64,000 nucleotides of DNA from Sphingomonas sp. (lineage in GTDB: Bacteria; Pseudomonadota; Alphaproteobacteria; Sphingomonadales; Sphingomonadaceae). Below the pieces are notes generated by a model, which was not told where the DNA came from, made no database searches, and was given only the letters and a program-made list of their open reading frames with translations. The stretch lies in contig JAHBZH010000001.1 in assembly GCA_019635535.1 (NCBI GenBank), positions 62,001 through 126,000 of the forward strand, written 5' to 3'. The first letter of the stretch is position 1. The number at the start of each line of letters is the position of its first letter. Shown in pieces: positions 15,270 to 56,483 of the stretch. The translations under genes and the position numbers were made by a program.

Positions 15270-15902
15270 ATGGTGATGTTTTTACAGGAAAACGTCGTGG
15301 AGACGAGCTTCTCCTTTTCCAGCCAGGTTCCGCAACCGCCCGAGCGGCGGCAGGCGGAGCGCCATATCAAGATCCTGCGCGTCGGCACGCTGGTGATCGA
15401 CGGCCGGCGCGAGCTTTGCCTGATCCGCAACGTCTCGGCCGGCGGGCTGATGGCCCATGTCTACAGTCATGTCGCGCCCGGCCAGGCAGTGATCGTCGAG
15501 CTCAAAACCAATCAGCAGGTCGCCGGCCGCATCGCCTGGGTGCGCCAGTCCAATGCCGGCATCGCCTTCGACAACGAGGTCGATATCGAGGAATTGCTCG
15601 CCAATCCCCGCGTGCTCGACAATGGCTGGCAGGCTCGCGCCCCGCGCATCGAGGTGGACCGCGCCGCGGCCCTGCGCGCCGGCGCCCGCACGCACCGCAC
15701 CCGCACGCTCGACATCTCCCAGAGCGGCATCAAGCTCGACACCGACGCGACGTTCGAGCCCGGCGACGAAGTGGTCGTCACCCCGGAGGATTTCCGCCCC
15801 CTCGCCGGCGTCGTCCGCTGGCAGAACGGCCGCCAGTGCGGCGTCGCCTTCAACCAGATCGTGCCGCTGTCGGAGCTGATCGGCTGGCTGAAGCGGCGCT
15901 GA
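15270..15902 (+). CDS. Tandem PilZ-domain protein (probable c-di-GMP receptor)
   Basis: A 210-residue soluble protein with two PilZ domains in tandem. The first (about residues 24-105) has the RRQAER pair and the RNVSAGGL motif. The second (about 128-208) has RTHRTRTLDISQSGIKL. These correspond to the RxxxR and [D/N]xSxxG signatures that bind cyclic di-GMP, so both may be ligand-competent. There is no enzymatic or output domain; such proteins act through partner binding. The ATG at 15270 is one choice; an ATG at 15276 is equally possible. The preceding 200 nt hold a hairpin and an AT-rich stretch suited to a promoter. Confidence 0.82.
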   Translation: MVMFLQENVVETSFSFSSQVPQPPERRQAERHIKILRVGTLVIDGRRELCLIRNVSAGGLMAHVYSHVAPGQAVIVELKTNQQVAGRIAWVRQSNAGIAFDNEVDIEELLANPRVLDNGWQARAPRIEVDRAAALRAGARTHRTRTLDISQSGIKLDTDATFEPGDEVVVTPEDFRPLAGVVRWQNGRQCGVAFNQIVPLSELIGWLKRR

Positions 15903-15982
15903 GGCGGCGGGCGGCGATGCCCGCCATCGAAGTATCGGCACGCATGCTCACACGTCCCGCGCCGTCATGCCGACTTAAAATG

Positions 15983-16707
15983 GGGACAGTATATATTTAA
16001 TTCCCAGTTCCGACCTGCTATCGCCCGCTCATGCCGCGCCTTGCCCGCCTCGTCGTCCCCGGCCTCCCGCACCATGTCACGCAGCGCGGCAATCGCCGCC
16101 AGCCGACCTTCTTCGGCGAGGAGGATTACGCGCTCTATCTCGATCTGCTGCGGCGCTGGTGCGCGAAGGCGGGCACGCGGATCTGGGCCTGGTGCCTGAT
16201 GCCCAATCATGTCCACCTGATCCTCGTGCCGGCGCATGAGGACGGGCTGCGCGCCGCGCTCGGCGAGGCGCACCGGCGCTACACGGCGCACGTCAACGCG
16301 CGGGAGGGCTGGCGCGGCCATCTGTGGCAGAGCCGCTTCGCCTCCTTCCCGATGGACGAGGACTGGCTGATCGCCTGCGCGCGCTATGTCGAGCTCAATC
16401 CGGTCCGGGCGCGGCTGGCGAAGCGGCCGGAGGACTGGCGCTGGTCGAGCGCGCGGGCGCATCTCGCCCTGGCGCAGGACAATGTGACGGAGACGGCGCC
16501 GCTGCTGGAGCGGATCGGCGACTGGCGCGCGCTGCTCGACGGCGGGCTGGACGACGAGGCGCGCGAGGCGATCCGCAGGCGCGAGCGCAGCGGACACGCG
16601 CTCGGCGGCGACGCGTTTCTGGACGGTCTGGCGGCGATGCTGGGCCGCGAGGTCAGACCCCGCCCGCGCGGCCGCCCCCGGCGAAGCGAATAAATATATA
16701 CTGTCCC
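15983..16707 (+). mobile_element. RAYT transposase gene bounded by perfect 17-bp inverted repeats
   Basis: The sequence gggacagtatatattta at 15983-15999 recurs as its exact reverse complement at 16691-16707, enclosing one Y1-type transposase gene. The right repeat begins at the TAA stop of that gene. The AT-rich repeats contrast with the high-GC gene and surroundings. No direct target duplication is evident just outside, which fits a HUH/Y1 enzyme and not a DDE-type IS. Whether this is a mobile unit or a domesticated RAYT locus cannot be decided from one copy. Confidence 0.75.
16031..16693 (+). CDS. REP-associated tyrosine transposase (RAYT, Y1/IS200-like)
   Basis: A 220-residue Y1 single-strand transposase of the RAYT group. 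The metal-binding HUH motif is His60-Val-His62 (CLMPNHVHLI) and the nucleophile is Tyr119 in ARYVELNPVRA; the early GLPHHVTQRGN segment is also characteristic. Such enzymes cut and rejoin single-stranded DNA at hairpin (REP) sequences. The catalytic residues are intact, so the gene is not obviously dead. It stands alone between the PilZ gene and pepN, and the stop codon is embedded in the right terminal repeat. The C-terminus ends in a basic Arg/Pro tail. Confidence 0.9.
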   Translation: MPRLARLVVPGLPHHVTQRGNRRQPTFFGEEDYALYLDLLRRWCAKAGTRIWAWCLMPNHVHLILVPAHEDGLRAALGEAHRRYTAHVNAREGWRGHLWQSRFASFPMDEDWLIACARYVELNPVRARLAKRPEDWRWSSARAHLALAQDNVTETAPLLERIGDWRALLDGGLDDEAREAIRRRERSGHALGGDAFLDGLAAMLGREVRPRPRGRPRRSE

Positions 16708-17161
16708 GGTTTTTTCCGAGATCAGCAGCCAATAAGGCGTTCCCTCCCACGCGCGTCCCCCGGAGATTGCGGCCTCATGCCGCCCTCACAAGGCAACCGA
16801 CGATCAGGGGTTTGCGCGCATGCCTCCTGACCCCATTAGGCCGATGCGCGATGGAGTGGGCGTCCGCAACAGGTCGGAAGTGATCCTCTGCCCCGCCCGC
16901 TTCCAATGTAGGAAATGCTCTGCCACGCTTGCCCCGACTCGGGGCCCATGCCCCGGTTCGCCGGCTCTTTGAATCGTCCGTTTCGCCCAAAAAATTTCGT
17001 AGGCACACCGTCGCGCATATGGGTGAAGATGCTGAAGTTTCGCGCTCTTGCCTTCCGCCCTTCGACCCCGCCAAAACACCCCTCACCCTGTCAACTTTGT
17101 CAACTTAACAGAGAGGGACGCCCTGATTGCGCGGCGGTGGCGGCGGGCCTAAATTCGCCCG
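16708..17161. other. Long gap without a supported gene upstream of pepN
   Basis: About 450 nt with no credible coding sequence; open frames here lack ribosome sites and family support. It holds an 18-nt sequence at 16905-16922 (aatgtaggaaatgctctg) resembling pieces of two repeats elsewhere in the window, and a perfect 9-bp tandem duplication of tgtcaactt at 17089-17106, just upstream of pepN. The duplicated element could be an operator or part of a promoter; nothing more can be said. Confidence 0.4.
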
Positions 17162-19744
17162 ATGCTCGACGCCCTCTCCGCACCCGCCGCGCCTCATGTG
17201 ATCCGTCGCGAGGAGTATCGCGCGCCGGACTGGCTGGTGCCCGAAATCGCGCTCGAATTCGATCTGGACGCGGCGCGCACCATCGTCCGCGCCGCGCTGA
17301 CCGTCGAGCGGTCGGGCGATCACAAGCTCCCCGTCCGGCTCGATGCCGAGAATCTGCGCCTGATCCGCGTCGCGGTGGATGGGCAACCGGTCAATTATTG
17401 GTTCGAAGGCGATGTGCTGAAGGTGCCGGTCGAGGGCGACCGCGCGGTGATCGAGACCGAGGTCGAGATCTCCCCGCGCGCCAACACCCAGCTCATGGGC
17501 CTCTACGAATCGGGCGGCCTGCTCTGCACCCAGTGCGAGGCCGAAGGCTTCCGCCGGATCACGCCCTTCCCGGACCGCCCCGACGTGCTCAGCCGCTACC
17601 GGGTCAAAATGACCGCCGACAAGGCGCTCTATCCGGTGCTGCTGTCCAACGGCGATCCGGTCGGCGCCGGCGAGCTGGACGGCGGCCGCCACTGGGCCGA
17701 ATGGCGCGATCCCTTCCCCAAGCCCTGCTACCTCTTCGCCCTGGTCTCCGGCGATCTGGTCGCCAATCGCGACAGCTTCACCACCCGTTCGGGCCGCACG
17801 GTCGATCTCGGCATCTGGGTCCGCGACGGCGATGCCGAGCGCACCCGCCATGCGATGGACTCGCTCAAGGCGGCGATGAAGTGGGACGAGGAGGTGTTCG
17901 GCCGCGAATATGATCTCGATGCGTTCAACATCGTCGCGGTCGCCGATTTCAACTTCGGCGCGATGGAGAACAAGGGCCTCAACGTCTTCAACTCGCGCTA
18001 CATCCTGGCCGATCCGGACACCGCGACCGACATGGATTACGACGCGATCGCCGGCGTCGTCGCCCACGAATATTTCCACAATTGGTCCGGCAATCGCGTC
18101 ACCTGCCGCGACTGGTTCCAGCTCTCGCTAAAGGAGGGCTTCACGGTCTTCCGCGACCAGCAGTTCAGCGCCGACATGGGCAGCCGCGCGGTGAAGCGGA
18201 TCGAGGATGTCCGGATGCTGCGCGCCGCCCAGTTCCCGGAGGATGCCGGTCCGCTCGCCCATCCGGTGCGCCCCGATTCCTATATCGAGATTTCGAACTT
18301 CTACACCGCGACCGTCTACAACAAGGGCGCCGAGCTGATCCGGATGATGCACACCATCCTCGGCCCCGAGCGGTTCCGCGCCGGCTGCGATCTCTATTTC
18401 GAGCGGCATGACGGCCAGGCCGTCACCTGCGAGGATTTCGTCAAGGCGATGGAGGAGGCGAGCGGCGCCGATCTCGGCCAGTTCCGCCTCTGGTACAGCC
18501 AGGCCGGCACGCCCAAGGTCACCGCCCGCCTCGCCCGCGACGGCGATGCGGTGACGCTGGAGCTGGCGCAGGAGGTGCCCGCCACGCCCGGCCAGCCGGC
18601 CAAGCAGCCCATGGCGATCCCCCTCAAGGTCGCCCTGCTCGACGAGGCGACCGGCAAGGCGGTGGACGAGCGGCTGGTGATCCTCGACGCCGGCCAAGCC
18701 AGCATCCCGCTGGCCGGCGCGCCCGTCAGGCCGGTCCTCTCGATCAATCGCGATTTCTCCGCGCCGGTGATCGTCGAGACCGACCGCGCCGCCGCCGATC
18801 TCGCCTTCCTCTCCGGCTGCGACGACGATCCCTTCGCCCGCTACGAGGCGATGCAGCAGTTGATGCTCGACACGCTGATCGCAGGCGTCACGTCCGGCGC
18901 GGGCGATCATGGCGCGGTGGTCGATGCCGTCCGCCGCACGCTGACTGACGAGGCGCTCGACCCCGCCTTCGTGGCCGAGACCGTCCTGCTCCCCAGCGAA
19001 TCCTTCGTCGGCGACCGGATGGCGCAGGTCGATCCCGAAGCCATCCACCGCGCCCGCGAGGCGCTGCGCGCCGATCTCGGCGCGGCGCTCGACGACATCT
19101 GGCGCGGCGCCTATGCGGCCAGCGTCGCCAACCGATATGAATACAATCCCGCCGCCAAGGGCGCGCGGCGCCTGCGCACCATCGCGCTCGGCTATATCGC
19201 CGCAACCGGCGCCGCCGATGCCCCCGCTCTGGCCAAGCGCCAGTTCGACGAGGCGGACAACATGACCGACCGGCAGGGCGCGATGGGCGTCCTCGTCAAC
19301 GGCGATGCGCCGGAGCGGGCGGCGGCGCTGGCCGCCTTCTATGATCGCTACCGCGACAACGCGCTGGTGATCGACAAATGGTTCACCACCCAGGCGCTCG
19401 CCACCCGCGCCGACACGCCCGCGCTGGTCGAGGAGCTGGCGAAGCACCCGGATTTCACCCTTGCCAATCCGAACCGGCTGCGTTCGCTGGTCGGCGCCTT
19501 CTCGGTCAACCAGCGCGCCTTCCACGACGCCTCGGGCCGCGGCTACCGCTTTCTCGCCGACATGATCCTGGCCGAGGACAGGCTCAATCCGCAGACCGCC
19601 GCCAAGCTGGTCCCGCCTTTGGGCCGCTGGCGCCGCTTCGACGAGGGCCGCGCCGCCCTGATGCGCGCCGAGCTGGAGCGGATCGTCGGGACGGACGGCC
19701 TCAGCAAGGACGTGTTCGAACAGGCCAGCAAGAGTCTGGCCTGA
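17162..19744 (+). CDS. pepN: Aminopeptidase N (M1 family)
   Basis: An 860-residue zinc aminopeptidase of the M1 family, close to the length of E. coli PepN, that removes N-terminal residues from peptides in the cytoplasm. The substrate-anchoring GAMEN motif is at 266-270, the zinc site HEYFH at 302-306 and the third ligand Glu325. The C-terminal half (about 440-860) carries the DUF3458 Ig-like and helical domains of the PepN subfamily. No signal peptide is present. The ATG at 17162 has no strong ribosome site, but homology starts within a few residues. It is convergent with the Mla operon, 9 nt away. Confidence 0.96.
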   Translation: MLDALSAPAAPHVIRREEYRAPDWLVPEIALEFDLDAARTIVRAALTVERSGDHKLPVRLDAENLRLIRVAVDGQPVNYWFEGDVLKVPVEGDRAVIETEVEISPRANTQLMGLYESGGLLCTQCEAEGFRRITPFPDRPDVLSRYRVKMTADKALYPVLLSNGDPVGAGELDGGRHWAEWRDPFPKPCYLFALVSGDLVANRDSFTTRSGRTVDLGIWVRDGDAERTRHAMDSLKAAMKWDEEVFGREYDLDAFNIVAVADFNFGAMENKGLNVFNSRYILADPDTATDMDYDAIAGVVAHEYFHNWSGNRVTCRDWFQLSLKEGFTVFRDQQFSADMGSRAVKRIEDVRMLRAAQFPEDAGPLAHPVRPDSYIEISNFYTATVYNKGAELIRMMHTILGPERFRAGCDLYFERHDGQAVTCEDFVKAMEEASGADLGQFRLWYSQAGTPKVTARLARDGDAVTLELAQEVPATPGQPAKQPMAIPLKVALLDEATGKAVDERLVILDAGQASIPLAGAPVRPVLSINRDFSAPVIVETDRAAADLAFLSGCDDDPFARYEAMQQLMLDTLIAGVTSGAGDHGAVVDAVRRTLTDEALDPAFVAETVLLPSESFVGDRMAQVDPEAIHRAREALRADLGAALDDIWRGAYAASVANRYEYNPAAKGARRLRTIALGYIAATGAADAPALAKRQFDEADNMTDRQGAMGVLVNGDAPERAAALAAFYDRYRDNALVIDKWFTTQALATRADTPALVEELAKHPDFTLANPNRLRSLVGAFSVNQRAFHDASGRGYRFLADMILAEDRLNPQTAAKLVPPLGRWRRFDEGRAALMRAELERIVGTDGLSKDVFEQASKSLA

Positions 19745-27300: not shown

Positions 27301-27386
27301 CCGTTCGGGCTGAGCCTGTCGAAGCCCTGCCCTTTCTTGCGCACTAAAGAGAAGAACAGGGCTTCGACAAGCTCAGCCCGAACGGG
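27301..27386. repeat. Interspersed inverted repeat with GTTCGGGCTGAGCCTGTCGA arms
   Basis: An 86-bp element with arms of about 30 nt: the left arm (27301-27330) and the right arm (27357-27386) are near-complements, both built on the GTTCGGGCTGAGC core, with an AGAGAAGAACAGG segment inside. A relative lies at 56396-56483. These cores are common in sphingomonad intergenic DNA. Read through in frame it encodes a Val-Arg-Ala-Glu-Leu-Val-Glu-Ala peptide, which is an artefact and not a gene. Confidence 0.85.
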
Positions 27387-56395: not shown

Positions 56396-56483
56396 CTCCG
56401 TTCGTCCTGAGCCTGTCGAAGGACTGTCTTTTCCTTGGAACAAAGAGAAGGACAGGGCTTCGACAGGCTCAGCCCGAACGGAG
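56396..56483. repeat. Second copy of the GTTCGGGCTGAGCCTGTCGA inverted-repeat element
   Basis: Left arm 56396-56425 and right arm 56454-56483 are near-complements and share cores with the element at 27301-27386: the right arm carries the AGGCTCAGCCCGAACGG core. The copy lies in the 133-nt gap between the synthetase gene and the MscS-type gene. The central loop again contains an AGAGAAGG segment. Confidence 0.85.

Follow-up and report, generated by a model that had tools for sequence, protein, structure and literature searches.

A TIRtron-type unit in Sphingomonas sp.: a RAYT-family transposase gene between tagged terminal inverted repeats

The RAYT-family Y1 transposase gene described here is bracketed by two terminal inverted repeats and, as judged from its sequence, the whole constitutes a new example of the TIRtron class. 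This kind of unit is a known one, since Di Nocera et al. (2013; PMC3733652) had given the names TIRYT and TIRtron to RAYT genes with terminal inverted repeats instead of REP hairpins. Their article describes a GGGGWSAS motif, repeats that in some cases overlap the 3′ end of the gene, and dimers, clusters and dispersed repeat families in some genomes. The explanation that we favor, and consider quite probable as a whole, is that of an autonomous transposon-like unit whose transposase would act on two cognate repeats tagged with GGGGACAG.

Anatomy of the unit and its transposase

The window, i.e., the whole 64,000-nt stretch of DNA that was analysed, derives from Sphingomonas sp. (assembly GCA_019635535.1, contig JAHBZH010000001.1, positions 62,001–126,000 of the forward strand); its relevant features are collected in Table 1. 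Perfect 17-bp inverted repeats around the gene, AT-rich in a GC-rich context and with the stop codon inside one of them, had been described in an earlier note on this DNA, and all three observations are confirmed. The 17-mer GGGACAGTATATATTTA occupies positions 15983–15999 of the plus strand and its exact reverse complement positions 16691–16707; the GC content is 29% for the 17-mer vs. 68% for the window; and the right repeat opens with the TAA stop (16691–16693). Once the A-rich flanks are counted, the arms reach 23 nt at 91%, and the unit measures approximately 725–737 bp. Further sites of the 17-mer within 3 mismatches were not found in the 64-kb window (shuffle mean 0.01), and this pair is the only exact 17-bp inverted repeat of the window with a gap of 20–1000 bp (mean of 30 Markov-1 controls, 0.07).

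Table 1. Features of the unit and of its surroundings (window coordinates)
Feature	Position	Strand	Basis
Upstream neighbor, PilZ-domain protein; anchor for the comparison of occupied and unoccupied sites	15300..15902	+	Matched in 26 of 26 genus genomes
Left terminal inverted repeat: AAAAT + GGGGACAG tag + TATATATTTA	15977..15999	+	Exact 17-bp core 15983–15999
RAYT/TIRYT Y1 (HUH) transposase, 220 aa, HVH 60–62, Y119 with Y---NP	16031..16693	+	ORF, profiles, alignment, model
Right terminal inverted repeat, opening with the TAA stop; tag CGGGACAG	16691..16713	-	Sequence
Dispersed ~220-bp repeat copy, outside the unit	16887..17110	+	39 BLAST matches genome-wide, in which a copy is sometimes split
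Downstream neighbor, M1 family aminopeptidase (PepN-like)	17162..19744	+	Also in range of the PilZ gene in G009

The tag of the left repeat, GGGGACAG, fits the GGGGWSAS motif and starts 49 bp ahead of the ATG, a position comparable to that of the tags in relatives, while the tag of the right repeat, CGGGACAG, is one base off, the first G being altered. The proposal that coding end and element end are fused holds for the window unit, where the right tag has its outer edge 17 bp past the last sense codon, but not as a trait of the family, of whose range this is the short end: in relatives with a downstream tag this edge is 15–132 bp past the matched end (median 37; ≤19 in 4 of 42). The predicted single-strand fold of the unit has its two ends paired, and no Rfam family matched between 15900 and 17200 up to E = 1.

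The gene was also correctly read as an intact Y1 transposase with the HVH motif at residues 60–62 and Tyr119. Its complete 220-aa ORF matches Pfam Y1_Tnp (E = 5e-10) and the NCBIfam profile REP_Tyr_transpos (NF047646; 76.2 bits, E 2.3e-21, just short of the curated cut-off of 80), and residues H60, H62, Y119, N123, and P124 are invariant across an alignment of 20 sequences. The AlphaFold2 model built from this alignment has a mean pLDDT of 92, and its top match among solved structures is 4er8, the complex of a REP-associated tyrosine transposase with a REP hairpin, followed by the transposases (TnpA) of ISDra2 and IS608. In the view of Quentin et al. (2018; PMC6006769), TIRYTs probably correspond to their subclass 2.1, for which they report a C-terminal HTH domain (Bac_DnaA_C, HTH_23, or HTH_28). 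A Pfam scan of the 20 members up to E = 5, in which the HMMER filters drop most weak matches, gave no HTH family, yet the C-terminus of the modeled protein is helical (residues 156–162, 165–171, 175–187, and 194–204); we do not place the protein in subclass 2.1.

Repeat copies in the host genome and occupancy of the site

The earlier note had proposed a genome-wide search for the 17-mer and for whole-unit copies, which returned three extra 17-mer sites and no second unit. The transposase is single-copy in its own 2.75-Mb genome, with no second RAYT match at E ≤ 0.001. A third exact copy of the 17-mer is found at C1:1148403 and copies with 2 mismatches at C1:235250 and C1:2654710, compared to 0 sites for the reversed 17-mer used as control. 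The three solo sites and the repeats of the unit have in common an A-rich 5′ extension ahead of the tag. Within 1.5 kb of the solo sites no partner repeat was detected at ≤4 mismatches, while weaker ones exist at 5–6 mismatches; the solo repeat that was folded (L033) forms no hairpin by itself. The 18-mer including the full tag is present in 3 of 396 genomes of the order, that of the window included.

These data bear on the possibility that the unit is a dying relic, which arrived by transfer, never spread, and left the solo repeats as decaying debris. The 2 mismatches in two of the three extra sites, the lack of a recognizable partner at these sites, and a genome without any further transposase match are what such a relic would leave. 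On the other hand, an intact gene with its catalytic residues and two unit repeats that show no difference over 17 bp speak against long decay. Taken together, we regard the relic reading as possible, if on the unlikely side. It overlaps the explanation by a transposon-like unit and differs from it solely on present activity. That the window copy is still active we consider rather doubtful.

The state of the site in the genus was assessed using the upstream PilZ-domain neighbor, which is matched in all 26 genus genomes. For each genome the best PilZ locus was taken (47%–100% identity, orthology being assumed) together with up to 1.5 kb of flank, or less where a contig ended. The transposase occurs inside this flank in the window's own genome only. 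Among the 25 congeners, a single one (G009) shows both the PilZ gene and the aminopeptidase gene in range; no transposase lies between them, and the spacer of about 655 bp holds a 173-aa ORF without match to the unit. Because the two neighbors occur in G009 without the transposase, and the PilZ flanks of the other congeners are also without it, the locus of the unit is, as far as these sequences indicate, not fixed across the genus. The search for empty sites thus yielded one bracketed site without the transposase and no nucleotide-precise empty site among the 25 congeners (flanks up to 1.5 kb). The outcome that the earlier note had named as a refutation, a 17-mer found nowhere else together with a locus fixed in all relatives, did not materialize on either count, given the extra copies and G009. 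Its suggestion that a RAYT with precise terminal inverted repeats is a unit able to move or to be mobilized is upheld as regards the class and the plausibility; this support does not extend to the mobility of the window copy, which is single-copy and has no precise empty site.

The surroundings of the 17-mers contain other repeats. Each of the four 17-mer loci has near it the core CTTCCAATGTAGGAAAT of the dispersed ~220-bp repeat, at distances of 14, 15, ~190, and 288 bp and always in one relative orientation. The core by C1:2654710 is degenerate (3 mismatches), and the proximity is a post hoc observation. Short inverted pairs of CCGTTCGGGCTGAGC and CTGAGCCTGTCGAAG are found in the window at 27301–27385 and 56407–56472, and they resemble a REP-like repeat that is also present upstream of the third 17-mer copy (L033).

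Related transposases and their tags

The distribution of the transposase is patchy: at E ≤ 0.001 and with fragments counted, 23 of the 60 relatives are positive, as are 12 of the 26 genomes of the genus when that of the window is included. A single genome may have as many as six matches, some of which are fragments or have stop codons. Order-wide, 42 of 396 genomes carry the transposase at E ≤ 1e-30, and 7 of 72,556 plasmid records hold a RAYT at E ≤ 1e-20, all below 60% identity. According to the record titles, mostly of metagenome bins, the relatives belong to Pseudomonadota, Thermodesulfobacteriota, Myxococcota, Planctomycetota, Armatimonadota, and Elusimicrobiota; three more phyla are represented among the listed relatives by one row apiece.

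The flanks were surveyed for the best 80 named loci of a longer list, of which 75 had enough flank for the tag count and 78 for the inverted-repeat count; three of these 80 are the same DNA as loci from the G-numbered genomes (L168 = L005 of G037, L195 = L008 of G047, and L216 = L024, the second transposase of G007). Among these best 80 listed loci, 50 of 75 relatives carry the tag GG[GT]GACA[CG] at most 150 bp upstream, the exact tag being absent in the other 25, and 42 of 75 have the inverted tag in the interval from 10 bp ahead of the matched end to 140 bp past it; both are present together in 33. In the control windows, 21 of 1865 were positive in each direction. The commonest distance from tag to start in the relatives is 55 bp, compared to 49 in the window. 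Likewise, a flanking inverted repeat at score ≥12 was obtained in 58 of 78 of the best listed loci, and not in 20, vs. 42 of 229 cross pairs, a control inflated because the tag is common to many loci, so that the tag-window control is the cleaner of the two.

The chance origin of the inverted repeat, or its being a transcription terminator beside an ordinary IS200-like gene, we consider, as far as sequence can tell, extremely improbable and have discarded: the 0.07 exact repeats expected per window mean that the repeat length by itself is only suggestive, whereas relatives are flanked by the tag at comparable distances, far over control, and the 17-mer recurs elsewhere in the same genome. It is because of its position around the gene, its third genomic copy, and the tag flanking the relatives that the repeat is accepted as real.

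On a quick tree of the transposases, in which each duplicate locus was entered once and two rows with one internal stop each were read as X, the phylum labels are clustered but impure (13 changes; minimum 8, shuffled mean 24.5), and the genus members are spread over several separate parts. The smallest starred set around the window sequence, at 97, comprises five rows: the window, G007, the second transposase of G007, G019, and G036. Along the tree, the tag changes 8 times at its third base (G or T), compared to a shuffled mean of 15.9, and 14 times at its last base (C or G), compared to 27.0; in both cases 0 of 500 shuffles were as low. The tag states were taken from anywhere in the 150–170-bp flanks, paired repeat or not, and 7 of 98 rows for G/T and 16 of 98 for ACAC/ACAG are without a clear state. 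This pattern fits cognate repeats evolving with their transposase, although the clustering is due in part to the ancestry shared by near relatives.

These results also bear on the alternative of a domesticated, immobile RAYT with a host function, whose repeats would be binding or regulatory sites, e.g., for autoregulation or at the mRNA end. RAYTs have been called single-copy and vertically inherited (PMC8049555), and the one transposase copy in the window's genome is in line with domestication. However, the presence of the gene is patchy at the level of the genus, the relatives, and the order; genomes with up to six matches, some broken, occur; the genus members fall in separate parts of the tree; the neighborhood is not retained; and the repeats are found apart from the gene. 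We therefore hold domestication to be improbable. More generally, the TIRYT branch is patchy, multi-copy in some relatives, and accompanied in some by gene-less pairs with a matching tag, and this mobile look of the relatives sits badly with RAYTs as domesticated, single-copy, vertically inherited genes.

Gene-less repeats, copies of the unit and the proposed mechanism

When the 60 relatives were scanned with the pattern GGGGACAGTN6TTT, three transposase carriers had several sites (G007, 125; G048, 12; G037, 4), and the other 57 genomes had 0–1 each, with 0 in that of the window; the reversed pattern gave 14 sites in 12 of 60 genomes, with at most 2 in any. Most other transposase carriers are without a tag population by this one pattern scanned, and their tags mostly differ. 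Four stretches of G007 contain 43 tags that form 19 convergent pairings: 13 of 71–75 bp with arms alike and varied middles, three of 52 bp adjoining the transposase, and three of greater length in which a reverse tag is used again. Two of the pairs were folded and both gave strong predicted hairpins. Judged by sequence, the inverted tag pairs of G007 have the REPIN layout. The same genome has 82 further GGGGACAGTTAC sites, none in common with the 125 (207 tags in all), and G048 with its 12 tags likewise carries inverted tag pairs. In G019, GGGGACAGTTAC is found at 19 sites, and seven of those in forward orientation are followed, 14 bp further, by a reverse partner, forming 26-bp palindromes; no such palindromes were found in the eight other genomes scanned, and the control gave one.

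Copies of the unit in three relatives support its transposition, although ordinary recombination could yield the same arrangements. G041 has a full unit on C16 and, on C4, a second copy minus the middle ~360 bp; on the left the copies share 207 bp at 97.6% identity and on the right 171 bp at 83%, and the homology between them stops at the right terminal inverted repeat. An IS interrupts or masks the deleted copy at its left end, and what is known of the left flank of the full unit comes solely from 141 bp that overlap the end of contig C1. G005 contains further diverged partial copies (77%–84%) which end, as judged by eye, at or near the repeats. Finally, on C47 and C102 of G003 (L146, L147) the RAYT unit is found in a tandem array with a period of 1195 bp, 99.5% identical. 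Movement of the unit is supported in the relatives and presumed for the window copy.

Compared with known systems, the window unit agrees with TIRtrons in having a Y1 RAYT-like gene between terminal inverted repeats with GGGGWSAS, one repeat overlapping the 3′ end of the gene. It resembles REPtrons and REPINs in its fold, with 4er8 as first match, its Y---NP motif, a short tag by the repeat, and the inverted pairs of congeners. Unlike in those systems, for which cleavage rules on GTAG REPs have been reported (PMC8266576), the repeats bracketing the gene are tagged with GGGGACAG instead of GTAG and are not GTAG-tagged REP hairpins, and the single solo repeat folded forms no hairpin alone. With IS200/IS605 elements the unit shares the Y1 HUH core, seen in Pfam Y1_Tnp and the ISDra2 and IS608 structures; however, the transposases of those elements recognize subterminal secondary structures at the element ends (PMC6006769), whereas the window unit has plain terminal inverted repeats. 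Among the papers that a literature search listed, those containing the letters GGGGACAG deal, to judge by their titles, with other subjects.

The explanation by an autonomous transposon-like unit draws on the anatomy, the tags around relatives and their change along the tree, the dispersed repeats, the absence from G009, and the deleted copy of G041, all of which are seen in the sequences. The unit would work as follows: (i) when the locus becomes single-stranded, e.g., on the lagging strand, the repeats would anneal and place the gene in the loop of a giant hairpin; (ii) the transposase would recognize the GGGGACAG-tagged end, cut the single-stranded DNA through Tyr119, and rejoin it elsewhere, its cargo being either the whole unit or gene-less repeat pairs; (iii) gene-less pairs with the same tag would make up the REPIN-like populations of congeners, and single repeats left behind would be the three extra sites of the window's genome. 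The use of the hairpin in the cell, the single-strand cleavage, and actual transposition are thus presumed steps. A broader and much more tentative idea, which we think has perhaps the weaker chance of being right, is that one RAYT lineage of the genus is seen here at three stages, the gene-carrying unit of the window, the pairs of G007, and the palindromes of G019; REPIN and REP populations may then arise from the ends of still-mobile TIRYT transposons, and TIRYT genes may move as units rather than being domesticated. Since the gene-carrying form and two repeat forms exist in one genus, the step from transposon end to REPIN lends itself to testing in near relatives and with a small number of purified proteins.

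A separate observation concerns IS ends located at one same place inside TIRYT-type repeats, in G041 (L251, L255, L258, L260, L261, L262, and a variant in L271) as well as in G005 (L254, L257, L259). The joints read ..TATACYG/TTGTCTAATTGA.. or degenerate forms of it in G041 and ..GTATTGYG/TTGTCTAATTGA.. in G005, where the slash marks the joint, and the sequence up to the joint resembles each genome's own repeat. The IS end from the G041 repeat gave no match against the plasmid records. A 62-aa C-terminal fragment by the joint of L268 had no match in Pfam; it matches the NCBIfam IS110 family RNA-guided transposase at 2.4e-10 (40.1 bits, below the full-length cut-off). PMC11208160 cites cases of IS elements that insert into REPs and of IS1111-type elements that insert into the ends of Tn21, and the TIRYT repeats, to go by the partial IS sequence from which the element is known, look like another such case, as targets of IS110-like elements.
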